The notes below the pieces were generated by a model, which saw only the letters and a program-made list of their open reading frames with translations, made no database searches and was not told the DNA's origin. Shown piece by piece: positions 20,496 through 60,874 of a stretch of DNA of 64,000 nucleotides. A program made the translations under genes and the position numbers. Source of the DNA: Pascua guehoae (Eukaryota; Basidiomycota; Tremellomycetes; Trichosporonales; Trichosporonaceae); the NCBI GenBank assembly GCA_001600415.1, contig BCJX01000005.1:1730008-1794007 (forward strand), in the 5' to 3' direction. Positions within the stretch are counted from its first letter, which is position 1. Each line of letters opens with the position of its first letter.

Positions 20496-22065
20496 GGTGG
20501 AACCCGGGGGTGCTGGGAGAGTTGCTCGAGTAGTGTAACGGTCCTTCCTGTCGCTGTAGTTGGGTACGTATATCTATCTACCTGTCCTGGTCGCGTACAA
20601 GGCACATATATCGACTGCACCTCCAAGCTACGTCTGCCCGAAAATCAGCAACTGCATTGCGCCATCGATGGGATCGGATATCCGATCCCCCACGTGCACA
20701 CTTTAGGGAATGCCAAAATATGCGAAATGCCGCCGGTGCCTGGAATCGTGCCTGATACCACAAGCGAGGAGCGCCTACAAAGATCTGCGCCTTGGGTATT
20801 GCGCCCTCGGCCGCTTGGCGGGGGGGGTGCCGCCGTTGGGGCTGTCTTGCTCGTGTGAGCGGCAGTAACCGCGGCGTTGGGCGGCATCGGGGCCTCTGGT
20901 GGAGAGGTCCGAACGCCACGGGCGCCACAAAGGCGTCTCGAGTGACATGATCCGGCCGCGCGGAGAGACCGATGCACGCGACCCGGCACGCGACCGAAGC
21001 GGTGCTGGCAGTCAACGCTGTGGGTGGGATGGTAGCTCGTGTCTGTGTACGCCAACGTTGGACATGAAACAGCAATGGATATCGACAGGAGACTGGGTGG
21101 TTATGTCCTATCGCGTAAGATGCCGAGCAGTGGTATGTCCACCATACGTCACTGGATGGCTAGATACGCCCCGCTGTCTCAGCTCGAAACTGGGGACACT
21201 TCGAACACGGGGCAGCCTGTCTTGGACATCTCCCAGACCAACTATCCTTCGTTCCTTTCCCAACTGGACGCCTCGACGGCAAAGGAGTGCAGCACGGAGG
21301 TCGTGTCTGACATGGCTCCCGACCTGCATGGGTATACGTTGCTGCAGACGACACTCGGGACGACTGCTTGGGAAGGAGGACCTGTCGAGTTGGCTAGCCG
21401 CTTGGGAGTTGAAGCATTCTGTCGTCAAGGAGATGGAAGAGTGATTACAGGATCCTCACAGAAAGGTTAGGCTAGCCAGGTGCGACTACGCGACCGGCGT
21501 GGCCATGAAGTTGATCTATTTTCCCTCATCGGCGATGGCCGTGACGGGCACGGACGTGAACCGGCACTCGGTCACTTGCGTTCTGGTACGACCACTGACT
21601 CTTTCAACGTCGATGAGCCGGCTTCCCACTCCACTGGCTACATTGATGGCCTGATCGCTCACTGTTCTGATCAGCCCTCGCTCCACAGAGCGTCGAGCGC
21701 ACCGTGCCATCGTCCATGTGGCCTTGGGTTGCATGTACGCCCTAGCGTGCCCACGGAGCCATGGTGCCCGAACGCACATAGCAGTGGAGCATGCACACGA
21801 CGTCTCTCTGTACCGTTGGCGTTTGTATGTAGACTCTTGGTGAAATGCCAGAGGCCGTGCTCGCCATCAGCGCATCAGTGCATCTTTGTTGACAGATGGG
21901 ATGTGCCTAGATTATGCGATTACCCCACGCTATCTCTGCACCAAACCGGCTATCAACCATCCAACCCCAACCGAACCCCACAACATCCCCCACAAACGCT
22001 TCATAAAGCTCAGGCCCCACTCTCCAGTTCTTACCACCTCACAACAACAGAAACCCCATCCCACA
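20496..22065. other. Divergent intergenic region
   Basis: It holds the promoters of the AAAP transporter (minus) and the epoxide hydrolase (plus). A plus frame around 21075-21470 is open for about 130 codons but has unbiased codons and no recognisable domain. Nothing else was seen. Confidence 0.55.
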
Positions 22066-24972
22066 ATGTCCTTTGACAAGCTCCCCCACACGCCCAGCAT
22101 CCCCGTCGAGCGCTTTGCGCCGCACATTCCCGACGCGCAGATTGCCGACCTCAAGGCGCGCCTCGCGCACGCCGCCCCGCGCGCACGCACGTGGGACAAT
22201 ACCAACGGGCCCGACCACCTGGGTGTCAAGCGGGGCTGGCTGGACGAGATGATCGACAAGTGGCAGGAGTTTGACTGGTGCGTAGTGTTCGGTGCCTCTA
22301 TGACCTGTTCCGTTTCCTACGGTCATGGATTGTGCTCCAGTCCTCGGAGGGGACTGCATCACTGACCCCCGCTGACGGCAGGCGCGACATTGAGCGCGAG
22401 ATTGCGTCCTTCCCGTCATACCACGCGACAGTCTCGTACAAGGGCCACGCGTACAAGATCCACTTTCTCGCCCTGTGGGCGGCCGACCCCGACGCGACGC
22501 CCGTCGTCTTTAGCCACGGCTGGCCTGGTGCGCCTCGGACTAACACACTACACCACTGACAGTTCACTAACACTTTCCCACAGGGAGCGTGCTCGAATTC
22601 GTCCCGATGCTCAACCACCTGCGCAAGACGTACACGCCCGCGACGCTGCCCAACCACATTCTCGTCCCTGCGCTCGTGGGGTATGGGTTCTCGTCGCCCC
22701 CGGCACTCGATCTTGCGTTTTCGGCCCGCGACAATGCCGCCGTCTTTGATGGCATGCTCGCGGGGCTTGGGTTTGTGCGCCGCGGCGACAGGGGCGGGTA
22801 CTATGCCCAGGGCGGGGATATTGGGTCGTTTGTGACGAGGCAGCTGTCGCGGTTTGACAACTGTCTTGGTAGGTCTGTTTGTGGGGATGTCAGGGTGCAG
22901 CCGTTGTGTAGAGAGGGGAGGGGAAGGACCGCGTCCGTTTCTAAAGAAATGGACGGCTGCTTGCGGGGGTGGGGCAGAGGTGGATGGAGTGGTCTTAGTT
23001 GGGGTCTTGGGTGGGGTCTTGGGCGGGGGCGTATGCTGGAAGGGTGTCGCTCTTCTAGATTCTCGGCACGCGGCCATGCGGCCAAAGATATCCTTGATGG
23101 CGCCAAACGTGGCCCGATGCCGCGTAGCTTCTCTCCATACCACCCAGTCCAGCTCGACATTGTCCACTATCGCACCTTTCTACAGTTGCCAAATCCCTCC
23201 CCAACATGTCCAGCTCCCTCAGGCGTCGCTTCCCGACCCCTCCTCCCCATTCCCACATAGAACGTACCTCAGCTAACCCCAGGCATCCACCTCAACTTCT
23301 TCCCCATGCTCCCGCCCGAGGGCGCGGACATTGCCTCGCTCGACGAGTTTGACCAAAAGGGCCTCGCGCGCGCCGCCGCCTGGGGCCAGTGGGGCCAGGG
23401 GTACCGCATCGAACAGTCGACCAAGCCGGCGACGATTGGCGCCGTGCTCGAGTCGAGTCCTGTGGCGGTTCTGGCTTGGTGAGTGTGTGTTGGTGTTGTG
23501 GGTGGGTGTGGGTGGGTGTTGGTATGGGTGTTGGCGTGCGTGGGGGTGTGGTTTGGATGTGTGTACTGGGCGCCTGTGTGGTTGTCTGCTCGTGTGCTTG
23601 CTTGTCTGCTTGCCTGATCTGGTCACTCTTCGCCCGAGTCCTTCCCTGCTCGACCCTTGCCTTCTCGACTCCTGTCTCACTCGAGTCCGTATCTCCTTGA
23701 GCGATGCTGTATACCCTCACGTCGTCGTTTTCCCAGTCCGCCTTGATCTACTGGACTGCTCGTTCGCTTTGGATGTGCATGTGGACCAGAACACTCTCCC
23801 GCTAACCCCAGGATCGGCGAAAAGCTCAACTACATCCAACTCCCCGCCGAGGACAAGCTCCGCTTCCTCCTCGCAGAGGTCAGCCTGTACTGGTACACGG
23901 GCACGGCGGCGACGTGTATGTGGGAGTACCGTGCGGTGAGTCATGGCTGTGCGTCTGGGTATGTGGTTGGGTCGTGTGTGCCACGCACGCGGAGCGACAT
24001 CGACAAGACCGACACCGTCGAAGATTGATGCCATCGACAATACCGATGCCATGGACAAGGCCGATACCATCGACCGCATCGACCGCATCGACCGCATCGA
24101 CCGCATCGACCGCATCGACCGCATCGACCGCATCGACCGCATCGACAGCATCGACCGCATCGACAGCATCGACGGCATCGACAACCTCAGTGCCACCCAG
24201 ACGTCCAATAATGCTGCCACAATCCTGGTATGCTCCCAGCGGTTGAAGACGTCACAGCTGTCCAAGGTGGCAGCCAGCATTGCATTCTGGAACTGTAACA
24301 GTTGGAACGGTGACCACCATAAGGCAGCAGGCCACAGCCACACGCACGCCATACACCAACACTACGGTCCACACTGCCCAGCCCCCAGCACGGCACCGCA
24401 GCTATACACACCCACACACACCCTACCACGTCACCTCCACAACACCACACCGTCATGGCGTCCACCGCGTTCTCCACCCCCATCCCAGCCCCCCTCCCCT
24501 CCCCCCCACCCCACACCCCAACTAACACCCCAGGCATACGGCATGGAAAAGCTCGAGACGTCAAAGTACCCCGACCACATCGCAAAGCCCACAGGCTACA
24601 GCCAGTTTGCGTACGAGATCATGCCCACGCCCATCTCGTTTGTCGGCATGGTCGCCAACGTCGTGTCCGCCAAGCGCCACCTCGAGGTGAGTAGAAACCA
24701 TCCAAGCGTGCTGGTATTGCCCGCATGTGTTCCGTCAATGGCACCGTACGCGGCGTACTCGTGCCACACCCAAAGGCGTCGCCCAGACCAAGACCGCAGA
24801 GCATGCAGCACCACACACCATGCACCATGCACCACGCACCACGCACCACCCACACACACAACCCGCACGATACTAACCCCAGGGCGGCCACTTTGCCGCG
24901 CTCGAGCAGCCCGTCGCGCTCTGGGACGACGTGCAGGCCTACCTCCACGCGGCGGCGGCTGCAAAGTTGTAG
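22066..24972 (+). CDS. Epoxide hydrolase (alpha/beta-hydrolase with EHN domain)
   Basis: Seven exons (22066-22277, 22382-22527, 22584-22868, 23283-23478, 23812-23935, 24534-24686, 24883-24972) give 401 residues. The N-terminal EHN region (LKARLAHAAP, GWLDEMIDKW) precedes the hydrolase core. The oxyanion-hole motif is H116-G-W-P119. The nucleophile is D198 in YYAQGGDIGSFVTRQL; the family usually has D-W-G here, so Ile at the next position is unusual. The base is H375 in GGHFAALEQP. It should hydrolyse epoxides to diols, for detoxification or catabolism, probably in the cytosol. Introns 3-6 are 414, 333, 598 and 196 nt, far above the window norm, and are filled with GT-rich, minisatellite and CA-rich repeats. 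There is no signal peptide. Confidence 0.88.
23998..24183 (+). repeat. 9-bp minisatellite in intron 5 of the epoxide hydrolase
   Basis: About 13 near-perfect copies of a 9-mer ATCGACCGC lie at 24067-24183, preceded from 23998 by degenerate copies (ATCGACAAG, ACCGATGCC, ATGGACAAG). Read in the frame of exon 6 the array encodes I-D-R repeats without a stop. Confidence 0.9.
24792..24864 (+). repeat. CACCATG/CACCACG and CA-rich repeat in intron 6
   Basis: Tandem seven-base CACCATG and CACCACG units run into a CACACA tract, all within intron 6 of the epoxide hydrolase gene. Confidence 0.75.
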
Positions 24973-25676
24973 ATTGCAGAATGGCTTGTAGCCCGAGTAG
25001 GACAGGGGCGAGTGAGACGAGGTAAGGCAGAAGACTATGCAGGTGGTTTTATGGAAACGGACAGACCTGGGCAAGCTGGCGTGTCTGCTGGGCGGCTTGT
25101 CCAAGTACCGTGGTATGGCGTTTGGTGCCACAGGCGGCGCCAGGTGCTGAACATAGGTGAGATGGAGCCAGAGCCAGAGGCGTGTTCACGCTTGTTTGGC
25201 GAGGTTTGCTGGTTACAGCAGATAATACCAGTGATCCAGAGTGTCCGAGCTCGAGGAGACGTTGTCATTGTTGCATTGTCAGACGGTGGGATGGATTCGA
25301 GTTGGACCGTTGGTTTCGACGTGCCTCGGATATCGGAATCGGCGATGGCCGTCATTTCCGGTGCATCGGCCAGTGTCCCGGCCGTCTCCTGCACATGATC
25401 CACTGGCCGATGCCGCGACGACTCGACATGCTGTGCGCACCGACCTCGAGCGTGGTCGCAGGGACAGCCCCGGCTCGCCAGTGATCCCAGTGACTTGCTC
25501 TCAGCGTCCACTCTTCTCGAACACCAAACTCAACTCGAACATCACAAGTGCAAGTGCACATAGCCCCCCACCCCTATCTCCCCCAAGCCGACGTCTCCCA
25601 AGCCGACCTCTCCCAAGCCGACCTCTCCCAACACCTACCTAAACCCACCCCCCCCCCCCCCCCCCCCGCGCGCACG
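24973..25676. other. Intergenic: 3' side of the hydrolase and promoter of the methyltransferase gene
   Basis: No gene was seen. Three to four copies of a 15-bp TCTCCCAAGCCGACC repeat (25577-25629) and a C20 run (25648-25667) lie in the presumed 5' UTR of the next gene. Confidence 0.65.
25577..25667 (+). repeat. 15-bp repeats plus C20 run just before the methyltransferase start
   Basis: The repeat unit TCTCCCAAGCCGACC is followed after about 18 bases by 20 consecutive C. The run ends nine bases before the ATG. Confidence 0.9.
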
Positions 25677-26441
25677 ATGCCCGACACAGCCGACAAACAG
25701 CACGGCCCCCCCCCGCCCCCCAAACCCTACGCCCTCGAAGCCGGGTCCCTCAACGCCTCGACGCTCCTCGACGCCGTCCGCCGCTCCCTCCCCCTCCCCC
25801 TCTCCTCCCTGCACGCCCTCGAAGTCGGCGCCGGCGCGGGGACAGTGACCCCCAACCTGGTCTCCCTAGGCAGCATCCATGCGCTGGAACCCAGTGCGTC
25901 GATGGCCGCCACGCTCGCGCGCCAGGTCTCCCCGCTCCCCAACGTGACCTTCTCCACGCACACGCTCTCCCCCTCGTCGGGCGCATCATTCGCCGCGGGC
26001 GAGGCGCAGGCGTCACCTACCGCCGAGGAGCCGGAGCGTACCGTCGTGCCTAGGGCCCGGTACGATGTGGCCTTCAGCACGCTCGTGGCGCACCACGTCG
26101 CCGACCTCGGGCCGTTTTTCGCGGGTATCCGCGCCGTCCTCGTGCCCGGCGGCCTATTTGTGCTCGTCGAGTTTGCGCATGGGCCCGACGGACAGGATCT
26201 GAGCGTCGCGTACCACCATGAAGAGGATGCGAGCATGGTGGCCGTCGACGACGACGAGGCGACGATTACGCACGACCAGTTCCGCGCGACGTGGACGCCC
26301 GGGCGGCTGGCGGGGCTGCTGGAGCGGTTTGGGTTTGAAGAGGTCGATGTGAGGCCCGGGAGGAGTATTCCGGCGTTTGGGCGGGTGGGCGTGCCGACGC
26401 TCGTGGCGACGGCGAGGAGCCCGGGCGAGTTTAGGGCCTAG
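25677..26441 (+). CDS. Class I SAM-dependent methyltransferase
   Basis: A single exon of 254 residues from the first ATG. After a Pro-rich head, the SAM-binding motif I is ALEVGAGAGTVTP (E49-G55 core), followed by an acidic residue in HALEPS. RARYDVAFSTLVAHHVADL resembles motif II/post-motif of UbiE/Methyltransf_11 enzymes, and LVPGGLFVLVEFAHG is the motif III strand. The C-terminal LAGLLERFGFEEVDV is the usual late helix. It transfers a methyl group from S-adenosylmethionine to a small molecule; the substrate is unknown. The upstream frame is open through the repeats without an ATG, so initiation at 25677 is preferred. Confidence 0.85.
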   Translation: MPDTADKQHGPPPPPKPYALEAGSLNASTLLDAVRRSLPLPLSSLHALEVGAGAGTVTPNLVSLGSIHALEPSASMAATLARQVSPLPNVTFSTHTLSPSSGASFAAGEAQASPTAEEPERTVVPRARYDVAFSTLVAHHVADLGPFFAGIRAVLVPGGLFVLVEFAHGPDGQDLSVAYHHEEDASMVAVDDDEATITHDQFRATWTPGRLAGLLERFGFEEVDVRPGRSIPAFGRVGVPTLVATARSPGEFRA

Positions 26442-36812: not shown

Positions 36813-38409
36813 TTACCACCGATTAAACACATCCTCCGCCCAGCCCACCAACCCATCCAGCCCCACCCGCGTCCCATCCCGGAGCACCACATACCCCGTC
36901 CAGTCCCCAAAGCACTGCACCGTATTGCTCGTGACCACCAGCGTGTCCGACTTGGCCACACGCACATGCCAGGGCGTCATGGTGGCGTCGACCCAGCTCG
37001 CCGTGACGCGCCACGGCTTTTCCGGGTGCGCCTTGTCAAATTCCCACATCGCGTCGTCGCGCGGCGGGCCGTCGAGCACGCCATCGACAATGATGCCGTT
37101 CTCCGTCGTGCCGCTCCCGTCTGTCCACTGCGCGCCGAGGTTGAGGCCCACGCGGAGGCCGGTGGTGGTGATGCCCGACGCGGTGGCCCTGTGTGTCAAC
37201 GTCGGGGGCATGTCTGGACTGGTGTAGCTGGTGGCTTGGGGGAGCGGCGGGTCGAGAACAGTGATGTGCAGACTGGGACTGGCAGAGAATGGCCCCATGT
37301 AGCGACGAGGTTGTGGCCCAGCCCGCGGCCAGGTTGTGGCCCAGCGCGCCGCCCCGGCATGGCGCGATGGAAACAGGAGGGTGATGGAAAGAAGGCACAC
37401 GGGCGGGAGATCCCAGGCTACGTCGAGCCGAGCTGAGGCTCGGCCTGGAGCAAAGGCCCTCTCAAGGCTGTGCAGGTCGTACACGACCGCCTTCGTCGTC
37501 CCGTCATGGCTTGACTGGGACCACGACGTCTACTTCTGCCACTCTGGACCGCGATCACGCAACGCCGCCAGTGCGCAGGTCACGATCCACCACCGGGCCC
37601 ACCGGCCACCGTCGAATCATGATCTGCTCGTCCGCACCACCCCCGCAACACCCCCACAGTCGCACTGCACTCATAGCAGTCGCCGCTCCACGCGCCCACA
37701 CGTCTGTCGCACCACACTCCATGTGCTCTGGGAACCCTTCTGCGCCCTCTCGTCGCACTCACCAGTTCCACTTGTTATTGTACGGCCACCGCCCCCGCCC
37801 CCTATCGAGCGTCGCCCACGCGTCCTTTCCGATCCTGATCTCGCGCCCGTCCACGGTCACTGTGCCGGTCACAGGCAGCCCGGGGCTCTTGAGGGTGTAC
37901 TGGAAGCGCGTATCGGACCATGGCACGACGACGCCTAGCGCCTCCGACGTGGTATCCACCACGAGGTCGGCGGACACACGCGGGGAGCGGAGCGTCAACG
38001 TCGTCCGGTGCGTCTCTGTATCCTCGCTAAACTCGACACTCATGCCCGCCACGGACGCGCGCGACGTGAACGGCGGCAAGCCCGTCGGCAGCGCGACATC
38101 CGACACGACACGCGGCCGGAGCGCCTCGCCGTCGATCGTCTGCCCCGACGCCCGGTCGTGCACGTGGCTCTGCATGACGGCCACATAGTCGAGGTCGGCG
38201 ACGGTCAGGCCCAGCACGACCTCGGGGCTCACGATCCCCCAGTACTCCCACAGCTTGGTCCGCCAGCCCCAGTATGCGCCGTGCGGGAGGTGCGTCGACT
38301 GGTGCACGGGCCCCCGCGCAAAGCCGACCGCGGCGCGGTTCAGTGTGCCGTCGGCGTTGGCGAGCTCGACGGCGGATGTAATCTCGACGGACGAGGTGGG
38401 ATCGAGCAT
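36813..38409 (-). CDS. DUF2804 family protein
   Basis: Two exons (38409-37763, 37188-36813) give 340 residues. Family hallmarks are visible: WRTKLWEYWGIVSPEVVLGLTVADLDY near the start, LDRGRGRWPYNNKWNW at the exon 1 end, and GLNLGAQWTDGSGTTENGIIVDG in exon 2. DUF2804 proteins occur in bacteria and scattered fungi; the role is unknown. The invariant W/N/GxG residues suggest a lipocalin-like or carotenoid-hydratase-like fold, but that link is from memory and weak. The intron is long (574 nt) and contains a duplicated AGGTTGTGGCCCAGC (37308 and 37331). No signal peptide or TM segment is evident, so it is probably cytosolic. Confidence 0.85.
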
Positions 38410-39082
38410 GCTGATGGTGGGTGAGTGTAGGTGTGTGTGTGTGTGAAGTGCAGGTACATGTGCGTGTGCGTGTGGTTCAAGTGTCGTGTTGATGGTGCAT
38501 GTGGTGCATTGACGCCACCGTTGTGGCCGCTAGGCCGGATGGGGGATAGCCGTCGCTGGCCGGCGTCGAGACCGGCAATAGCCGACAAACATTGGCTCGA
38601 TACTTCACGATCACTGTGCACACTAACCATAGTAGCTGCCTATTCTCAATAGTAACTTACATCTTCTCACAATAGATGTCGTTGGTGTCTGATGACGATG
38701 GCGACGAGGCGGCCCAAAAACAGAGGTCGAGCACGCCCCCAGCACTCCTTGCCGTTGCCCGCAACTCATCGGGCCCGAGGCTCCTGCACAACCTTCAGCA
38801 CGAGGGCGAAGCCAACCGCAGTGGGCTAAGGCATCACCATCACCTCAACACCAGCCCAGCTCTACCAGCCGGCTCGACCCCGGCCCACTGCACAAACAAA
38901 TACCGAGTCTGATGCCGTGCTGATGCATGATCACAACTAATGAAGCGGTACAGCCACTACCGCATATCTATCACGACTTCTAGCTCGACAATCTAACACA
39001 AAATATGGGCTCTAGCACAAGACTCTACGACCGCTCCAGCACACGAACCACAGACGCGCAAGGACACTCGCAGAAACGGCTC
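38410..39082. other. Intergenic: DUF2804 promoter and 3' flank of the second AAAP gene
   Basis: GT-rich microsatellites lie at 38427-38472. No gene was seen. Confidence 0.65.
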
Positions 39083-41121
39083 TTAGCACGCGTAGCTCTT
39101 GCGGAGGGTGCCCTCCCTGAACATCTTTGCAATGTCTGCGACTGCGCCATAGGTGCCGCATCCGAGGCAGATGATGCCGATGACGATACACGCAGAGTTG
39201 AGGATGGTGAGGACAGTGTTTTTGGGAGTGGAAAAGCAGCCGCCCTTCTTGATGAGCTTGAACCTGGAAACGGGGTCAGCGCGTGCGGTGGTACAATGAA
39301 GCCAGGCTTGATGAGACTCACCACATCCAGCCTGGGAGGTAGAAGGTGAAGCCCGAGATGAAGAGGGCTGAGATGATGCCGAGGAGGTCGGAGAAGAAGG
39401 GAATGGCCTCTGCAATGACCCAGGCAATGATGGAGCAAATGGCGCACCAGCCAATCCAGACGGCCCAGCCCTTTGCCGTGTTGACGTAGCGGATGGTGCT
39501 CTTGGCGAACAAGCAGTCGAGCATGTAACGGCCTGCGGTGACCGTGTTGATCGAGCCCGAGATGAAGATGACGGGGAGGGCGATGCCGAACGCGATGCGC
39601 GAGACCTTGTCTCCGGCCGAGAGGAGGGCGGGGGCCTGGACGTCCATGCCGATGAACGCATAGCCGAGCGCGCCGGTGCACGTGTAGATGACGATTTCGG
39701 TGATACCGAGGAGCCACACCGACTTGGGAAAGTCGGTCGGCGTGTGCATCTCCTGCATAAAGGAGAACTGGCAGATGGCAAACGAGTAGGCAAACACGAC
39801 GTTGCAGACGGCGACCATGGCGTCGGCAAACGTCGTGCCGGGCTTGGGCCACGCGCTCCAGTCGACCGCCGCATGCCCGCCCTCCATCTTGCCCGCGTTG
39901 ATGCCCGTCGCAATGAGCGTGATCAGGATGGCCGCGCAGATGGACACAAAGTCAATGTAGCCCAGCACGGCCATCTCGGCAAACGACGGTGGCAGCGCAC
40001 AGACAAACAAGAGGATCATGGACACGATACCCCACACGAGCGCACAGATCTCGGCGTGGGTAATGGTCTCAAACGCAATCGTACCCGTCAGGCAGTGCGA
40101 GCCCACAAGCAGGATCAGGTACAGGCAGAATGCAATGCCGATGACGACCTTGAGGATCTGGCCCCAGACGCCGCCCAGGAGGAGCGGGCCGACATCCGCG
40201 TAGTGCATGATCTGAGGGAACTTGATCTTGACCTGGGCAAGTGGTTAGTATGCTGCCACACACGCGCCGCACAAGCCATCAAGGCCCAAGCACTCACTTG
40301 TCCAATAACATAACTGGTGTAGATTGCCAAGAGTCCGATGCCGATCGTGATGATTACACCTGCGACCATGCCCAGGGTGGCAAAGGCACTGTATTGCGTC
40401 AGCACGAGCAGGCATTGATATTAACAAGCGGTGATGGCCGGTGGTCATGGCAATGAGCGCCGTTGTCGTCCACATGCCCGTCCATGCGGATGCGATCACC
40501 ACGAGTGTCAGGACGACGTCGTCCGTGCGCGGATATACCCGAGCACGGACAATTGTGACCAAAACCCGGGATATACGGAACCGCCGGCGACGAGATCGGT
40601 GCCCGGATATGAGGCGTCTAGTTTGCGAACGTGCGCCCATTGCAAAGCAGTGTTGCCGCAGTGCAGGATCGAGCATGCGGAGCCGACACCAGGCCCCCGC
40701 TACACGGCCACTCGAAAAAGGATGATCTGCAGGATAGTGGCACTCACGCAGGAAGGGACAAACTACCGAGAGCAATGGCCTCGACAATGAGCACGACGAC
40801 GAGCTGAATCCATCCGAGCTGGTGGTACTTTGTTTCTCCCTGGATCACGAGGTCCGAGTAGTACTCTTCACGCTCGGCCTCGGTCATCTCCCGGCTGGAT
40901 TTCCGTGTCAACATGTTGTCGGCGGAGTGGACGTAGATGTTGGAGTGGTGCTTCTTTTCCTTGGTGGTGGGGTGGGTGGAGTGGTGGTGAGGGGCAGTGT
41001 GGCTGTGGACGGCCTCGATGCCGGCGACGGCCTCAATGTCGGTCGACTTCTTTTCGTGCTGGACCGACGCGGCGAGGGTGTCTTCGCTCGGCGAGATGAA
41101 CCTTGAGAGTGGGTTTGGCAT
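39083..41121 (-). CDS. AAAP-family amino-acid transporter (MTR-like)
   Basis: Four exons (41121-40748, 40388-40298, 40232-39322, 39263-39083) give 518 residues. The cytoplasmic head is His/Lys-rich (HTAPHHHSTH) and contains TEAEREEYYSDL. Helix 1 follows KYHQLGWIQLVVVLIVEAIALGSLSLP, the classic opening of the fungal neutral amino-acid permease MTR group. Conserved blocks include TYGAV, VVFAYSFAICQFSFMQEMHTPTDFPKSV and YAFIGMDVQAPAL. About 11 helices are visible. Proton-coupled uptake of neutral or aromatic amino acids at the plasma membrane is the family role. It is only distantly related in sequence to the 18.5-20.5 kb transporter, so a recent tandem duplication is unlikely. Confidence 0.92.
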
Positions 41122-44100: not shown

Positions 44101-44882
44101 CTAGGCCGCTTCCATGCCAGGTACGATAGTGCCTGAGATTACTGCGGACATGGGTCTCGATCCGCAGACGCGTCACAATCGGCCATCCATCCCCGCTGGT
44201 CCACATGCTGACACTTATTCTTACAGCATTGATCGCTTCTGCCCCACAACATTGCCATGGCACCGGTGTCATGTTACCTCGTGGAGCACTAACCTTGTAG
44301 ACAGCGCAGTCTTGACCTAGGTTTCGCCTCGCTGTCGCCTCGAGTTCCAGGTAAGCGATTGTCGCTGAGGTGTCACATTCTCCCACGATGGACAGCAACA
44401 GGCGGTTGGAATAGCACTCTCGTCTACCGGAAACGCGTGTTCCGTCGAGTTTCAAGCTATTACTGTACCACTGACCGACTGAAATAGGATACAGACCGGG
44501 GTACAGAGTTAAGATTCTGACAGCACACACCTGATCACCGAGGAGGAGCAGAGACAGTCGTTCATGGTGGCCGAGAGACGCCAGAAACAGCGAGTGACAA
44601 CGACATAGAGAACAGTTGTCGTGGAGTTGTGGAGCTCTCGTGACCTATTGACACATCGTGCCACCACGAACGCATCACATGAGACAGGGAGAAGCCAGTT
44701 GCTGGTCCTACACTGCAACGAGCTGTGAGCGGTGGGTTCCGCTGCCCAACGATGAGCAATCAAAAATGGGATATAAGAGAGTGCTTGAACGATTCAACGC
44801 CAAGTTCCAACCTCGCCTTCGACACCTCCCTGCTTCCCCTACAACCACTACACTTTATCGAACATAGATATCGAACATAGAC
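41122..44882. other. 3.8-kb gene-poor stretch
   Basis: The left part is the promoter of the AAAP gene, with GAGTGGG repeats at 41120-41250. A17-like A runs occur near 41770. The right 760 nt share short blocks with the upstream region of the second peptide gene (for example 44125-44141). No gene was seen between. Confidence 0.5.
44765..44779 (+). promoter_or_regulatory. TATA-type core promoter of the first peptide gene
   Basis: The word AATGGGATATAAGAG lies 104-118 nt before the ATG and is nearly identical in sequence and position to the one before the paralogous gene. Confidence 0.7.
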
Positions 44883-45370
44883 ATGAAGTTCACCGTCTTC
44901 ACCACTTTCGCCCTCCTCAGCGTCACCGCTCAGGCGACCGCTATCCAGCGCGACAACGCTCCGTCGGACCTCTACGTGCCCTCGCGCGACATCACATGCA
45001 GCATGGGCGCCGATGGTAGCACCACCTGCGTCAAGGGCCACATCAACAACGCTCCCAGCGTCAGTCCCCACCCCATACTCCCTCTACCCTTCTCCTCTCC
45101 CCCCTTGGGCCACCGCTGTCGTTCTTCTGCTGACACGCATAGATTGCAGACATGAACGTCTCCAACCTCCCGGACAGCACCCTCCTCGAACGGGAGATGA
45201 CGGGGATGGACAAACGGCTCTCGTGCATTCGCTCAGATCTCTGCTGGGCCCATTGCTTAGCCCTCAGCTACTGCAACGCGTACTGCGAAAAGGGCATCTG
45301 CCACTGCAAGTGCAAGGACAAGACACCCTGGTACGACGTTGTGCCTTGCATTAAGACGACGTGTAACTGA
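44883..45370 (+). CDS. Secreted cysteine-rich peptide precursor, defensin-like (copy 1)
   Basis: Two exons (44883-45059, 45143-45370) give 134 residues. A signal peptide occupies about 1-20 (MKFTVFTTFALLSVTAQATA). A propeptide with two cysteines follows and ends in DKR at 82-84, a Kex2-type dibasic site. The predicted mature peptide (85-134, 50 residues) has ten cysteines spaced C-x5-C-x3-C-x5-C-x3-C-x4-C-x-C-x-C-x11-C-x4-C. This satisfies the general CS-alpha-beta defensin pattern (CxxxC, then [GS]xC, then CxC) with four extra cysteines. It is likely processed in the Golgi and secreted; antimicrobial, killer or signalling roles are all possible and unproven. Donor GTCAGT is atypical, but the paralogue splices at the same codon. 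AATAAA lies at 45402. Confidence 0.85.
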
Positions 45371-46895
45371 GTGTGCCGTTTGTATGCGGTCGGAAGTAAA
45401 AAATAAAGAGTGGGATGGGAATCAATAGGAATGAGCGATGAATATAGTACTTACTGTGGTGTCTGGGTCCTTTGCCAGGATGTTAACTGTCAGGGGTATG
45501 TAGAGGTCCCCCTCTCTCCTTCGCTGAGCATGTGCACGTGGCTAGTACTTTCTGTCGTAATGAGCGATAGAGCGATACATGGAATGAGTGCACGTCCGCG
45601 AGTATATGTAGAGCGCTTGGAGGCGGCTCGAGCGTACGTGTGATGGCGCGTGCGTGCTAGGCTCGAGTCCCTACGATTCAATCCCGCGTGGAACGAATCG
45701 TCAGCGGCCTCCTAGATGGGGCAGCGCTGCAAGTGCAACTTGGCCTCACTTGCGACCGAGCCGGGTCTCAAACGCAGAATGGTGCTGCTAACATTGCAGC
45801 ACCACGTCACCACCTGACTCATTGGTATTCACAGTGATGAACCTTCCTGATTTGCCCAGCCTCCCTTAGCCCGATGACGGCTGAGGGAGCTGACAGGCGG
45901 CAGTACTTGGGCGGGGCGGCAGACGAACCGAACACCACTCTCCATGTCGCTGCACTAATGTAATTCCGTAACGTCTCTCGCGGCCACTTGTCACGGGTGC
46001 TGTTGGGGACGAGGGCATGGCTTGTTGAAGCACGGGCACGACAAGGGCGCAAGGGCGGGCAACGCCGAGGGAGGAGATTCTATACTACTGTAGTACACCA
46101 GAGCGCGCCAAGCCGCCTGCGAACTCCTGCGAATGACCGATCGCGGAACTTCTGCGCACTAAAATGGAGAATCCCTGTTCAGTGGCCCAATGATGATAGT
46201 GCCTGAGATTAGACTTTGTTGTGAGAAGTCACACTTGAACGCCTCGACGTTTTGCGATGGCTAGTGCGACTCTGAATATTCTTCCCTTCTGCGCTAGTCC
46301 AGTCTCCACGGCCGTTACCTTTCGGGATAGATGCACTGTACCGCATGCTTGTCCACGGTGCCGTAAATTGCAATGGGATGGGGGAATTATGAACACAACT
46401 AGCACCCTCGGAACGAGGTTAACCGCGCAAAGAACGCCGATGTTTCCGGTTCGGCCATCATCATGATGTCACCCACCTGAACTAGTGGCACTTTAGAACT
46501 TCGGTGTGGCGTTGTGTTTTGCAACTGGCTTCTATTTCCTCCTCCTTGTTTCCTGTCTCTACTGAGCAGCTGACACTGATCATCCCTGATGACGACGACG
46601 TGCGAACATATGGTACCCACCTGCTCAAGAGCGGTCAGATGACAGCGGCAAACGCCGCTGCTGTATTGGGATTCTCGTGACGATGGTGGTGGCCTCAACA
46701 CGGCCACAACGACGTTCTTGGTCTGGGGTTGTGGGACCATGTTGGAGAACCCATGACGGCAGTGCCGCCTTGCAATTCACTAGCCCATTGCCTCGCTCCG
46801 GGACGGAAACTCAAAGGGAGATGCTCTCCAACAAGGGAACAGCGAGCGGACGATGGCAGTGAGAGGGGACGACGGTTACGGCGCTGGCGTGTTTG

Positions 46896-46910
46896 AAATG
46901 GGATATAAGA
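46896..46910 (+). promoter_or_regulatory. TATA-type core promoter of the second peptide gene
   Basis: AAATGGGATATAAGA lies about 95-108 nt before the ATG and matches the element before copy 1. Confidence 0.7.
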
Positions 46911-46970
46911 AGGCCCTCCAAGAGGCTTGATCAAGTCATGCCAGCCGTTCCAACTCCACCTAGCCTCCCA

Positions 46971-47000
46971 ACACATCCCAACACATCCCAACACATCCCA
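46971..47000 (+). repeat. ACACATCCCA x3 in the 5' UTR of the second peptide gene
   Basis: Three perfect 10-bp copies end three bases before the ATG at 47004. Copy 1 lacks this repeat. Confidence 0.9.
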
Positions 47001-47003
47001 ACA

Positions 47004-47469
47004 ATGAAGTTCTCCTTCGTCGCCATTGTCGCCATCCTAGGTGCAACGGCCAATGCGACCGCGATCGCCCGTGATGGTTCGACTTCGCTATACGTTCCCT
47101 CGCGCGACATCACCTGCAGCCCCACCAGTGACGGCGGCACCTACTGCGTCAAGGGCCACATTGACAATGCGCCCAGCGTGCGTATCCGCTCTAGCTCTCA
47201 CCCTTCTCATGAACTGACACGTACAGATCGAAGACCTGGACTTGAGCTTGTTGACGCGCGACCTTCCCGACTCGACCCCCGCCGAGCGTGCCCTCACTGG
47301 ACTCGACAAGCGCCTGTCTTGCGTCCAAGAGACCCTGTGCTGGACCCACTGCTTCGCCATCGGCTACTGCAATGCGTACTGCGACAAGGGCGTGTGCCAC
47401 TGCAAGTGCATGGACAAGACGCCGTGGTACAAGGTCGTCCCATGCATCACGACCAGCTGCAACTCGTAG
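47004..47469 (+). CDS. Secreted cysteine-rich peptide precursor, defensin-like (copy 2)
   Basis: Two exons (47004-47177, 47227-47469) give 138 residues, paralogous over the whole length to copy 1. Shared blocks are the signal peptide MKF..., LYVPSRDITCS, YCVKGHIDNAPS, LPDST and GLDKR. The DKR (85-87) site precedes a 51-residue mature peptide (88-138) with the same ten-cysteine spacing; C-x3-C is CWTHC, the GxC triad is GYC and the CxC pair is CHC. Intron position and phase are identical in both genes. Divergence is concentrated in the propeptide and non-cysteine positions of the mature part. Function is unknown; a secreted antimicrobial or signalling peptide is inferred. Confidence 0.87.
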
Positions 47470-49869: not shown

Positions 49870-52397
49870 CTAAATAGATTCTGTGCTGTTGTAGGGGTTC
49901 TGGGGGTCGTAGGGGAACTTGCGCACAGAGACGTCGCCAGAGTACGAGAACGCGTCCCACTGGACCTTGCCGAGATCGACCGTGCCGAACACAGGCTGGG
50001 CACCAAAGGTTTCGACGTCGGTGGTGCCGTTGTCGTTGTAGTTGATGCGGATCTGGTTGGTGACTGCGCGGGAAGGCTCGTTGAGGAGGAGGTTGTGCGG
50101 GGTGATCATCATGGCCGATTGGGCCGTGGTCATGACCGTGTTGGGGAGGTCGCCCGTGTGGGGCACGTGGTGCATGCCGAGGTTGTACCAGACGACAATG
50201 TCCTCTTGCTCGAGGTCGTCGCCGTCAAAGAAGGTGTCAAAGTCGATAATCGGGTGGGCGGGGTCGTATGCGTTCCAGGCGTTGGCGACGCGCGTCTCCG
50301 AGTCCTTGTACTTTGTCACATAGTATTGGTGGGTGCCGAACGCGCCCGACTTGAGGAGGTTGCTCGAGTCCTCCACCGTCAGGTGCATGCCCGCGCCGCC
50401 GCGGCTGGGCATCATCTTCCACCCGCGCTCCTCGCCGTACTTGTTCTTCTCATCCTTGTTGAGGATGAGCACGTGCTCCTTGCCGTTTGGCGCCCAGTTC
50501 ATCTTGCCGTGCGCCTCGTTGGTCACCTCGCTGCGGACCAGGTGCATCGTGTTGCGCGGCTTGTCGGACCACTTGTACTTTACTGTGGCGGGCTCAAAGC
50601 TGTCCTTGACCATCGTGTTCTTGCTGCCCAGGACGTCAAAGTCGGCCTTGAACGTGAGGACGTGGTCGTGCATGCTTCCGGACAGGTTGTCGTGGATCTT
50701 GTAGCCGTACCCTATTCGTTAGCCATCACAGTTACTGTGCTGTTTTGGTGCGACTCACCCTCGTTGGCGTAATAGTAGGCAGACTGGATGTATCCCGACG
50801 CTTGGACGATAGTTTCCATCGTTCCATCTGGCGTAAGCTCATGAAGGTTGCTGCTGGGCTAGGCTCTCTCACCAAGGTAGAATTGCGTCGTCACAGTGTA
50901 GTCGTAATTGCCGACCACATACACTGAGCGAACCACCAGCGCAATATTCTTGGTTGCGGAGACCAGACGCTGGGACGAGTGGCGCTGAAGGACGTAGTTC
51001 TGGTCGGCCTCAAAGATGGTAATGCCGCAAGGGTGGGTCTTGCTGACCTCGGACGCGTGGAAGGTCGCGTTGAGGCACATGGCGTACTCTGGCATATCGT
51101 AGCCGGGGATCTGGGAGAATCCAAACGGTCCAAAACCGTAGTACGTGTCGAGGTACGAGACGCCAGACTGGACGGGATCGTTGCCTGCGTAGTGCGCAAT
51201 GGCCTCCTGGAGACCGAGCTCGTACAGGACACGCTCGCCCTTGTACTTGATGTCGAAGAAGCGGAGGCCCGTGTCGCGCGTGTACGTGAGGTAGAAGGTA
51301 AAGTCCATCCACTCGACGTACTTTTGTTCCGCGTCGACCTTGAAGCGCTGCCCAGCAGGCTGTACCTGCTGGGGCGGGGGAAGCGTCTCGAGCGGGAGCG
51401 CGTCGCCCGGGGTCTTGTCGGTGCCGACCCAGTCGCCCGAGTAGTTTGGCGTGAGCTTGTTGAACCCAGGCTTCTCCCATGCACAGCGGAAGTCGTCGAT
51501 CGAAGTGTAGTATTCGTCGGCGTACAGAATACCCATGAGCGACCACTTGGACTGGTCACGCCCCGTAATGTCGGCCTTGAGGTAGAGACCCTGGGGGAGC
51601 AGGGTCCCACCGTCAAAGTATGTGGTCGAGTTGGCAAACTCGACCTCACCTGGAAGCCGCCAGAAGCCGCCCCAGTACACGGCGCGGTCGTTTCCGTGCT
51701 CGTCCGTCTCGTGCTGGACGGGGTCAATGCCCCAAATGTCGAATGTGTTCTCGAGGTCCTCGCTCGTCTCGATTGTCGCGTTGAGGAGGTCGCTGATAAT
51801 GTCCTTGAAGAGCATCGACTGCTCGACGAGGAATGCCGACGGGCTGTCGAGGTCGTAGACGCGAATCTTGGCGTCCTTGGACGTCGATGTGAGCGTGTTG
51901 GGGACGTGGGTGGTCTTGTCGCTGATGGGAAGAGGGCCCACACGCCAGTCCTGCGCGTACGGCTCCTCGGTCGCTCCGAAAAGGAGACTCGCAATAGCGT
52001 ACCGCGCAGGTTCAGCGCCGTCTCCGTCGAGGTAGGCGAGGACGTCCGCCTTTGGCGGGGCCGCCAGGTCAACGACCATGATCGTATTGTCCCAGTCACC
52101 TGCGTCGGCAACAGCGGTAAGGTTGAGGTCGGCTTGCTCGTGCAGATACGCAATGACCGAAGCAGCCTCATCGTTGCTCAGATGGAGGAACGGATTGGCC
52201 TTGGGAGCCGTGACGGTCGGGTACGACGACGTCTCCGCTACCTGGTCGATGAAGGTGCCGCCGCTGCGCCGAAGTGGGCCGCGGTAGCCTGGGCGACGGA
52301 CAGAGGACATCTTGGGTGTCGGGATGGCCCAGGCCAGGTCCACCAGACTGGCGAGACCCAGGCCAAAGGCCAGGTGTGAGAGGAGTGAAACGCGCAT
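49870..52397 (-). CDS. Secreted copper amine oxidase
   Basis: Three exons (52397-50873, 50827-50759, 50711-49870) give 811 residues. A signal peptide covers about 1-24 (LGLASLVDLAWA then IPTP). The TPQ cofactor Tyr is Y498 in the conserved N-Y-D-Y (497-500). Copper ligands H546 and H548 sit in the H-x-H of SMHDHVLTF, and a third His lies in NLGMHHVPHTGDLPNTVM. YLDTYYGFGPFGF holds the general-base Asp of the family. Several NxT/S sequons fit an extracellular glycoprotein. It oxidises primary amines to aldehydes with release of ammonia and hydrogen peroxide, probably for nitrogen acquisition. Length fits the larger fungal/PPLO-like group. Introns 1 and 2 are 45 and 47 nt. Confidence 0.95.
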
Positions 52398-54210
52398 TGT
52401 GTTGCTTGCTGGTTGGGGCTGTAAGATCGTTTGGGTCTCGCCTTTATGCCGCTGAGGTGCTCGATCGCCTCCTGACAGTGCTGGGTGGTGTCTCTACGGC
52501 CCCCGAAATCAGTTCGTCAAGTCTGCCGCGCGCTCTCCGGCTCGCCGCCCGTTGAGGCGATTGGCGTCATCGGTTGTTGGTCGCGTAACCACTGTTATCA
52601 TAGCCGTTGTGATGAGTAACGCTCGTCAGACCGTTCATACTGTACTGTACAGTTCCATGGTCTCTTGGCATGGCATCCGACAGGAGTGAGGTTGCCCATA
52701 ATGCATGTAACGGCGTCAACGCCGTTGCGGTGTAGTTTCCGCACCAGTCGGAGAACAAGGCACGATAGGCGTTCCGAACAGACAGATGTCACCGCGTGGT
52801 CGAACTGGTGGGCTATCCAAGGAAGCGTCCGTAATTGCGGAGAACACGCATGATGAAGTGGGTGTGTGGTTCAGGGCCATCGAAGAGTAATGATGAAGAA
52901 CGAACAGGAGGATGAGTTTTCATCAGAGCGTTCGTACTCACTTATCTTTGTCTCGGACGGTGGCTGACGCCTATCTGTTTGCTCGGCACCTGGGGCCTGG
53001 CAGCGGGGCACCGTTATCAACCGTCCACCGGGCCGACACCGACAGTACCTCGTTACGAGTTGGTCACCAAGGGTGGTCACTAGGGCTTGAGAGGCAAGTA
53101 AAGCTGGGATACAGGTATTCAGTGAGACCGATGCCACAGATCCATGGAACGATGTGGGTCAGATCACCATCACCGCAGAGATGTCACTTGTACACTGTCG
53201 GAGTTAGGCCGATGTGTTCGGATATATACCGAGTAGAGACTCACCTCCTAGTAACGCCTCCAAATGGCATCGCAACAAACAGCTTGGACAGTCGAATAGG
53301 TAGTCTTCCGCCTATCAATGGTGGGCAGGGCAATCTCAAGGTGGCGGCTTGCGACATACCAGCTTAGCACCGAAAGTCTTGGCACTCTTCTTACCCTGGA
53401 CCACCAAAATGCATCCGCGGCCCGAGCGATACTGCACCTGGAGAGGAAGAATGAGGTTCTGAGCGCCGAAGAATGATGATGTGATGATTGTGAGAATGGG
53501 CTGCGCAGTAGTGTGCTGACTTTGGAGACCCGACCCGTCCCCCTGCATGCCGGTATGGGTGAACCAGTCACCGTTGGAATAGAACAGGCACCGAACCGGG
53601 AGCCCGATGACGTGTCCACGATTTGGACAACAACACGGCAAGGTGGCCGACCGTGTCCTCGCTTCACCCCTTCTGTGGCCGCCTTGTGATGTGCTGTTCT
53701 GTACATGGCCGCCGCATTGAAATGTCAGGGGCGTAAGGCTAGCTTAAGGACCATTGACACGTGAGTGCTTGCTCTACAGATTGGCGACAGGGATGTTAAT
53801 GGCCACGGTATTGACCAAGGCGCGCAACACTTCGCCCACTGAACAAAGACACTTTCTGGTAGACTAACTGTGTACTTGGAGCCACTTGATCGGCACCGGA
53901 GCTGGATGTCATGACACACAATCCAACTTTGATGTGCTAAACGTGTGTCGGCAGCCGGGGACACTTGGTGAACCTTGCACTTCCCGACGATGGAGCACGG
54001 GCATGGAAAGCGTCACTCGAAATACAGAGTTTGTTTACATTACGACATTGCCGAGGCGGCGGGACACGAACATGGCCACGATGGGTGTGCCCCTCTGCAC
54101 GCCATCCACCACGATGGCAACGGTACCGACGAGCGACGAGATGGAGCAGTATAATAACTCACGACGCCGGATGGACATCAGACACGACCCCTTTCAAGTG
54201 ACCGTCCACC
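52398..54210. other. Divergent intergenic region
   Basis: It contains the promoters of the amine oxidase (minus) and the GDSL lipase (plus). No gene was seen. The last 100 bases include ATAATAACTC at about 54151-54160, possibly near the lipase transcription start. Confidence 0.6.
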
Positions 54211-59920: not shown

Positions 59921-60874
59921 ATGTCCGAACACACCGTCAACGTGGACAAGCCCCAGGCCGCGCCTCTGGCCGTCAACCCTCCCCCCAAGCGTCTCCTCAA
60001 CATTGCCGCCATGGGCACCACCAAGAACCGTGAGTGGCAACGAGCGCGTCGTACAATATTGGGGTGCTGACAGAGCCAACAGTTGGTATCACTGTCATTG
60101 GCGAGTTCTGCGGCACCTTCCTCTTCCTCCTCTTCGCCTACTGCGGCATCATGGTCGGCAAGTCGTCGGTCAGCGCCAACGGCTACGCCGAGTCGCCCGC
60201 CACCTCGGGCGAGTTCCTCGTCTTCCTCCTCTACGGAGCCTCGTGCTTTGGCTGCTCGGTCGCCATCAGCGTCTGGATCTTCTACCGTGTCTCGGGTGGT
60301 CTCTTCAACCCCGCCATCACCTTTGCCTTTATGATCGCCGGCCTCATGCACCCCATCAAGGGCGTGGTCGTCTTCATCACCCAGCTCGTCGCGGGTATCG
60401 CCGCCGCTGGTGTCGCCGAGGGCCTCACCCCTGGCAAGCTCGCCGTTGACAACGGCCTTGGTCGTGAGTATATTCATTCATTTAGTCATGTCATTTGCTA
60501 ACCCCCTCGCAGCCCACGTTACCGTCGCCCAGGGCTTCTTCCTCGAGATGTTCGGCACTGCCCTTCTCGTCATCACCGTCTTCATGCTCGCCGTCGAGAA
60601 GCACCGCGCGACCTTCCTTGCCCCCATCGGCATCGGAATCGCCCTCTTCATGGGCCACATGGTCTGCATCTACTACACCGGCGCCGGCCTCAACCCCGCC
60701 CGTACCCTCGGCCCGGCCGTCGTCGAGAAGGTCTTCCCCGGCTACCACTGGATCTACTGGATCGGCCCCGGTGTCGGTGGCATGCTCGCCGCTGCCATCT
60801 GGAAGCTCCTCAAGGTCCTCAAGTACGAGGAGGCCAACTCGAACCAGGACAGCGACGGCCTCACCATCGTTTAA
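59921..60874 (+). CDS. Aquaporin (MIP family)
   Basis: Three exons (59921-60029, 60083-60463, 60513-60874) give 283 residues with six TM helices and two NPA half-helices: G-L-F-N112-P-A-I-T and G-L-N224-P-A-R-T. The filter Arg is R227 and a His (H212 in FMGHMV) sits in helix 5. The residue after R227 is Thr followed by LGP, not the Asp of glycerol facilitators. These features point to an orthodox water channel. The first 36 residues and the last 20 (EEANSNQDSDGLTIV) are cytoplasmic. It should pass water across the plasma membrane. Codons are highly biased, suggesting strong expression. Introns 1 and 2 are 53 and 49 nt. Confidence 0.95.

Follow-up and report, generated by a model that had tools for sequence, protein, structure and literature searches.

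A tandem pair of predicted ten-cysteine prodefensin genes in the basidiomycete Pascua guehoae, with paralogues in the same genome and relatives in other fungi

Introduction

Fungal defensins have been recorded from four phyla, including the basidiomycetes, and propeptides occur in some of their families and are acidic in the malpisins, according to a survey (PMC4165938). Those of the cysteine-stabilised alpha-beta (CS-alpha-beta) type are antibiotic leads against Gram-positive bacteria. According to a review, copsin and the other fungal CS-alpha-beta defensins that had been characterised up to 2015 target lipid II (PMC6272156), and the contacts of plectasin with lipid II are given in two papers as Phe2, Gly3, Cys4, His18, and Cys37 (PMC10771296; similarly PMC8877149). 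Here, we describe two tandem genes, A and B, in a 64,000-nucleotide stretch of the genome of the basidiomycete Pascua guehoae (assembly GCA_001600415.1, contig BCJX01000005.1, positions 1,730,008 to 1,794,007 of the forward strand). This stretch is called the window, and coordinates without a contig label count from its first base. That A and B encode CS-alpha-beta prodefensins is almost certain in our judgement, and to the explanation as a whole, namely tandem prodefensins that are released by Kex2 and act in the manner of plectasin and copsin, we give a probability of roughly 0.55.

A and B share with plectasin/fDEF1 the fungal origin, the cysteine core, and a histidine before the third cysteine, and the fDEF1 precursor is described in the same survey as having a propeptide, as A and B do (PMC4165938). 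Plectasin, however, has six cysteines in 40 residues, whereas mature A and B have ten in 50 and 51 residues. Copsin, from Coprinopsis cinerea, resembles A and B in being a fungal CS-alpha-beta defensin that is rich in disulphides and, at 57 residues, about as long, but is reported to have six disulphides (12 cysteines) against at most five (10 cysteines) in A and B. Introns in fungal defensin genes lie mostly toward the 3' end, in the helix and the c-loop (PMC4165938), whereas the intron of A and B lies inside the propeptide; neither a propeptide intron nor propeptide cysteines are mentioned in the available part of that survey. In other words, A and B belong to a known kind, the CS-alpha-beta defensin, and their less usual traits are the cysteine pair in the prodomain and a patchy distribution among fungi.

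The Gene Pair and Its Precursors

Gene A lies on the forward strand at 44883-45370, with exons at 44883-45059 and 45143-45370, and encodes 134 amino acids; gene B, on the same strand at 47004-47469, with exons at 47004-47177 and 47227-47469, encodes 138. A preliminary description of this DNA had given these coordinates, the gene structure, and the cysteine pattern, all of which were upheld when the window was re-read and spliced. In A, a signal-peptide-like N-terminus of 20 amino acids (44883-44942) is followed by the prodomain, which fills the rest of exon 1 and carries a conserved cysteine pair, TC-x9-C-x2-G (44943-45059), a predicted phase-0 GT..AG intron of 83 nucleotides (45060-45142), the remaining propeptide (45143-45217), which ends in DKR (45209-45217), and a mature ten-cysteine CS-alpha-beta domain of 50 amino acids (45218-45367) with the stop codon at 45368-45370. 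B has the same parts: the signal-peptide-like N-terminus of 20 amino acids (47004-47063), the prodomain with the conserved cysteine pair (47064-47177), a predicted phase-0 GT..AG intron of 49 nucleotides (47178-47226), the remaining propeptide (47227-47313), again ending in DKR (47305-47313), and a mature ten-cysteine domain of 51 amino acids (47314-47466) with the stop codon at 47467-47469. The signal cleavage sites were placed by eye, and both introns are predicted from genomic sequence.

In both precursors, the hydrophobic N-terminus ends in A-T-A, the propeptide has a net charge of -3 or -4, and D-K-R follows. The propeptide thus has a conserved cysteine pair of its own, which the intron separates from the mature domain. 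Each precursor holds a single mature unit, ending in TTCN (A) or TSCNS (B), and the inter-cysteine spacing (5,3,5,3,4,1,1,11,4) is the same in the two mature peptides. The signal peptide, propeptide, DKR site, and equally spaced ten-cysteine domain of about 50 residues that had been described can all be seen in the spliced precursors. The idea of a Kex2-type secreted precursor also gains support, in that the genome encodes a kexin-type P-domain, with two exon matches at C16:346428-346738 (the search covered the P-domain only, the catalytic part lying outside it).

Of 133 aligned residues, A and B have 89 in common. By the Nei-Gojobori method, the synonymous divergence (dS) is about 1.05 overall and the nonsynonymous divergence (dN) about 0.24, giving a dN/dS of about 0.23, and in the mature part dN/dS is about 0.14. 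The likeness of A and B and the low dN/dS point to purifying selection on the protein sequence, so that the pattern is not a matter of chance. Judged by their sequences, A and B are tandem duplicates that encode predicted prodefensins.

The Defensin Fold

The framework C..CxxxC..C..CxC is present in the mature peptide as C3, C9-x3-C13, C23, and C28-x-C30. Against the Pfam family Defensin_2 (PF01097), with a curated cut-off of 20.4 bits, A scores 22.7 bits and B 27.4 bits; the earlier remark that no named family could be recognised does not stand, since both peptides pass the cut-off of this family and full-length relatives exist. When a family profile (A3) was compared with PDB sequences, the top match was the insect defensin variant 2e3e (E 2.3e-7), plectasin was matched at E 0.014, and one (2ll3) of the 43 chains at E up to 10 was by name plainly unrelated. 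In this count, Coprisin, Sapecin, Lucifensin, nasonin, navitoxin, and ASABF are taken to be of defensin type. B aligns without gaps with the defensin variants 2e3e and 2ny9.

Structure prediction of the mature peptides, which the preliminary description had proposed as a check, gave helix plus sheet: in A and B alike, AlphaFold2 predicts a helix at residues 6-15 and strands at 20-24 and 27-31, with a predicted local distance difference test score (pLDDT) of 82-84 for residues 11-30, from shallow eight-row alignments. In Foldseek, all 17 matches of A and 25 of the 30 matches of B are defensin or scorpion-toxin entries, the other five of B being something else; nasonin and the mite allergen Blo t 19 are counted here as belonging to this type. 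The proposed CS-alpha-beta fold is thus supported by the Pfam family, the PDB profile matches, the predicted helix and two strands, and Foldseek.

A and B share with Defensin_2, or the cis-defensins, the C...CxxxC...C...CxC core, the Pfam score, and the predicted helix and hairpin, and differ from them in having four more cysteines, a C-terminal tail beyond CxC, the motif CxCxC, and the two-cysteine prodomain. Of the proposed signature, CxxxC and CxC are found, but the [GS]xC element, the GXC of the gamma-core, is not at the canonical fourth cysteine, where Defensin_2 has G-G before the cysteine and A and B have N-A in the sequence N-A-Y-C; [GS]xC fits instead at two other places, the extra cysteine ahead of it (S-Y-C in A and G-Y-C in B) and the start of CxC, which reads G-[IV]-C. 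A genome scan with the gamma-thionin family (PF00304) gave no match, and it says little, since control genomes also gave none.

Paralogues in the Same Genome

The genome contains seven intact members of this family (A, B, C14, C6a, C6b, C9, and C11) and one disrupted copy; the disrupted copy and the five intact paralogues besides A and B are on other contigs. The search used single sequences, one exon at a time, together with the one Pfam family that matched, a procedure by which members may be missed. Exon 2 of A matches B and the C14 locus, exon 1 of A additionally matches C9 and C11, the C11 prodomain matches the second C11 copy and C6, and the C6 exons match a divergent neighbouring copy on C6. 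In all seven intact members, an intron is predicted where the prodomain ends, and Y, T-C, C, and G are invariant within the prodomain. Ten mature cysteines are found in A, B, and C9, and eight in C14, C6a, C6b, and C11, with CxxxC, C-x3-C, and CxC kept in 7/7. C14 reaches 10.5 bits against Defensin_2, under the cut-off, and Pfam gave no match for C9, C11, C6a, or C6b; these five are assigned to the family by the prodomain, the intron, and the cysteine framework that they have in common with the others.

The C6 pair (C6:979746, forward; C6:976029-976452, reverse) is divergently oriented, with eight cysteines and a net charge of +9. C6a and C6b have no KR before the mature domain but a single Arg (VAR, EAR), so another protease may cut there, and the two may also differ in mode of action. 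The disrupted copy (C11:208632-209039) forms a tandem with the intact gene on C11; its CxxxC is lost, and the frame running out of DKR fails to run on into the CGGRC..CYC stretch. The paralogues C9:199301 and C11:210505 carry CGGxC..CYC..C, a layout that recalls the eight-cysteine mollusc or nematode defensins.

Both A and B have a TATA-like box, TATAAG, on the forward strand: at 44772-44777, 111 nucleotides before the ATG of A, and at 46904-46909, 100 nucleotides before that of B. Of 60-mers drawn at random from one strand of the window, 0.8% contain TATAA[AG] or TATATA. The first pattern used (TATA[AT]A, ATAAAA, TATATA) matched five of the seven members and missed A and B; the pattern was widened to TATAA[AG] and TATATA after that result, which makes this promoter remark post hoc.

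The PF01097 scan gave seven places at E up to 10, three of them over the cut-off (A, B, and C6:1978180). We regard C6:1978180 as a chance match, made only through a CxxxC piece within a long frame, and the four weaker places as chance too, none of them having a six-cysteine frame. The prodomain matches C15:43184 and C5:581778 and the mature-domain match C1:2923239 revealed no defensin on reading. C5:581778 (reverse strand), of weak prodomain similarity, is a secreted-looking protein with short repeats (NPGxPxDIAP, KDPSGPKAGI) and FGKR near its end, which might be a repeat-type secreted precursor.

Relatives in Other Fungi

A homology search, also suggested in the preliminary description, found full-length relatives with the same precursor plan and all twelve cysteines. 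When the spliced precursor of A was the sole query against proteins, two candidates came up, neither of which scored. With a five-row alignment (A1), one of 44 candidates was found, P0011, which is 88% identical, has 72 amino acids, comes from a 1134-base contig, and scores 26.3 bits against Defensin_2. With an eight-row alignment (A6), five of 115 candidates were found, the new ones being P0014, P0015, P0016, and P0017 (E 4.9e-6 to 3.9e-3). P0015 is from Thyridium curvatum and P0017 from Sarocladium strictum, both Sordariomycetes (ascomycetes). PF01097 is annotated in the database for P0014 and P0017 and not for P0015 and P0016.

An alignment with A and B shows that the two prodomain cysteines, KR, and the ten mature cysteines are conserved in each of P0014-P0017. 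The pattern C..HC..YCN..C..C.C.C.D..C..T[ST]C, with the two-cysteine prodomain and KR, is found in 6/6 full-length sequences, the same six from which it was derived. Overall identity to A or B is 42-47%, with P0016 at 39 and 42%. The four differ from A and B in a first loop that is 4-5 residues longer and, in P0014 and P0017, in a shorter tail; P0015 and P0016 share the tail MDKTPW. Our literature search, which had most subscription journals outside its coverage, found no description of this ten-cysteine subfamily with a two-cysteine prodomain.

In the mature part, identity is 30/50 for B and P0015, 25/45 for B and P0017, and 27/50 for P0015 and P0017. A Sec63 piece of the P. guehoae genome (L050) is identical to PDB chain 7kak_D, which we take to be from a Pezizomycotina fungus, at 96 of 256 residues (37.5%). 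This value tells against Pezizomycotina for the genome, though it is in itself no proof of a basidiomycete, and close kinship with those ascomycetes is improbable. That the defensin precursors are similarly alike across distant fungi while Sec63 is 37.5% identical hints at transfer or at unusual constraint, in a comparison that sets a different gene and different species against the defensin. A tree of 12 rows was poorly supported, with one of nine inner branches starred, and it carries no transfer claim. We propose, though doubtfully, that the prodomain may be a conserved functional element rather than a spacer, its cysteine pair serving as a folding or neutralising partner of the ten-cysteine defensin until the Kex2 cut, and that the whole cassette of prodomain and defensin, on separate exons, may have been passed between distant fungal lineages, since the precursors are about equally alike between this genome and the two Sordariomycetes and between those two.

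The Additional Cysteines

Four cysteines come in addition to the core, two of them in a C-terminal extension, as had been noticed from the sequence: relative to the insect defensins, they are C19, C32, C44, and C49 of the mature peptide. This assignment follows HMMER, which places the insect CxC against C28-x-C30. A MAFFT alignment with plectasin sets the plectasin CxC against C30-x-C32, making C28 rather than C32 the extra one; the C14 paralogue has a single CxC, spaced as C28-x-C30, which favours the HMMER placement.

All seven members have an extra cysteine immediately ahead of the canonical fourth and another beyond CxC, which suggests a shared fourth disulphide. The eight-cysteine mollusc and nematode defensins (MGD, ASABF) also have an extra cysteine before the canonical fourth and another after CxC, and A and B carry two cysteines more than they do. 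The ASABF entry 2d56 is the only one of the type among the PDB matches of the family profile (E 6.8). A fifth disulphide would, from the sequence, involve the C-terminal tail, in which D-[KN]-[ST] and C-x2-T-[TS]-C are kept in the four full-length relatives.

Proposed Function and Alternatives

We propose that the signal peptide would be removed on secretion, that the two-cysteine prodomain would accompany folding in the secretory pathway, and that a Kex2-type protease would cut after Lys-Arg. What would then be secreted is a CS-alpha-beta defensin, 50 or 51 residues long and carrying as many as five disulphides, which may bind bacterial lipid II, blocking cell-wall synthesis in Gram-positive competitors. 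The lipid II step, made by analogy with plectasin, we consider evenly poised between right and wrong. It is suggested by the histidine at the plectasin His18 position: the His before the third cysteine is invariant in 6/6 full-length sequences and aligns with His18 in MAFFT. As in plectasin, the N-terminus ahead of the first cysteine is very short. Mature net charges are +2 for A, +1 for B, 0 for P0011, P0015, and P0016, -1 for P0014, and -4 for P0017; the values near zero of A and B are more in keeping with an antibiotic that docks than with one that lyses membranes, and the charges argue against simple membrane lysis. The subfamily has more disulphide potential, a conserved tail, and a cysteine-bearing prodomain, and the family offers a ready-made set of 8- and 10-cysteine variants with the same kind of prodomain. 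If the prodomain does assist folding, it would be a practical aid for making disulphide-rich defensins.

Several findings weigh against this explanation, some at the level of the fold and some at that of the target. The mean pLDDT is 70.3 for A and 69.0 for B, with a predicted template modelling score (pTM) of 0.47 and about 53 or lower in the final ten residues; every Foldseek E-value is at least 0.2 for both peptides; and none of the 22 chains aligned with A gives a VIA-align Z above 3.9. Two of the 21 matches in a single-sequence PDB search with B are other or unclear (EC88 protein, bursicon), and with the C11 exon alone all eight matches are ribosomal protein uL4 chains, at E of at least 0.11. 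Weak structural scores are common with a domain this small, and the uniformity of the Foldseek list, the Pfam score, and the sequence matches concur. As for the target, of the plectasin contact positions A and B keep the His and the cysteines and not Phe2 and Gly3, which are replaced by Leu-Ser or Val-Thr/Ser. In the other five paralogues, Ser, Arg, or Lys stands in for this His, so that members of the family may have different targets.

The fungal CS-alpha-beta defensin VdAMP3 is reported to be antifungal, warding off yeasts and filamentous fungi (PMC9438471), and A and B may likewise be antifungal effectors that kill competitors rather than antibacterials. We regard this as unlikely but worth keeping in view: the ten-cysteine layout with its conserved C-terminal tail is unlike plectasin, but the His18-like residue and the near-neutral charge fit lipid II binders, and the parallel with VdAMP3 is drawn from its description. 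A role as the fungus's own signals or developmental factors, with the defensin fold and without killing, is improbable. Kex2-type processing is generally known from secreted signals too, the TATA-like boxes 100-111 nucleotides upstream are such as regulated genes may have, and the net charge among relatives goes down to -4 (P0017); on the other hand, the mature unit has neither tandem repeats nor a C-terminal CaaX, so the precursor is not a typical fungal pheromone precursor, and the Pfam and PDB neighbours are mainly defence peptides or venom toxins.

The scorpion potassium-channel toxins among the nearest Foldseek folds and a report of a fungal defensin with a channel-blocking effect (PMC13199095) would suit an effector or ion-channel blocker acting on an animal or plant host. 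Such a role is very unlikely: CS-alpha-beta toxins are overrepresented in the PDB, the best sequence matches of the family profile are insect defensins, with plectasin within the first eleven rows, and the organism has no known host. Finally, the open frames could be decaying copies or no genes at all, given that the gene models of A and B come from genomic sequence alone and that a disrupted family copy exists at C11:208632, but the dN/dS of about 0.14 in the mature domain, the common intron position, and the full-length relatives in other fungi make this hardly credible.

Genomic Surroundings

An exact match to a 20-base stretch of 5.8S ribosomal RNA, regarded as universal, was absent from the 33.6 Mb assembly, from which the ribosomal DNA may be missing. 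Three tRNAs were all that Rfam revealed in 15 stretches, and Prp8, whose best PDB chain seems to belong to work on the human spliceosome, gave no help in placing the genome. Around the pair, 19 of the 39 frames that codon composition had singled out and the stretch 49870-50673 were scanned with Pfam, and no defence or toxin cluster was seen among them. The genes recognised are an epoxide hydrolase piece (21844-22362), a methyltransferase (25494-26438), a DUF2804 gene split by an intron-sized gap (36816-38529, reverse strand), an amino-acid transporter (39321-40244, reverse), a copper amine oxidase (about 49870-52493, reverse), and an aquaporin-like gene (60335-60871, forward).

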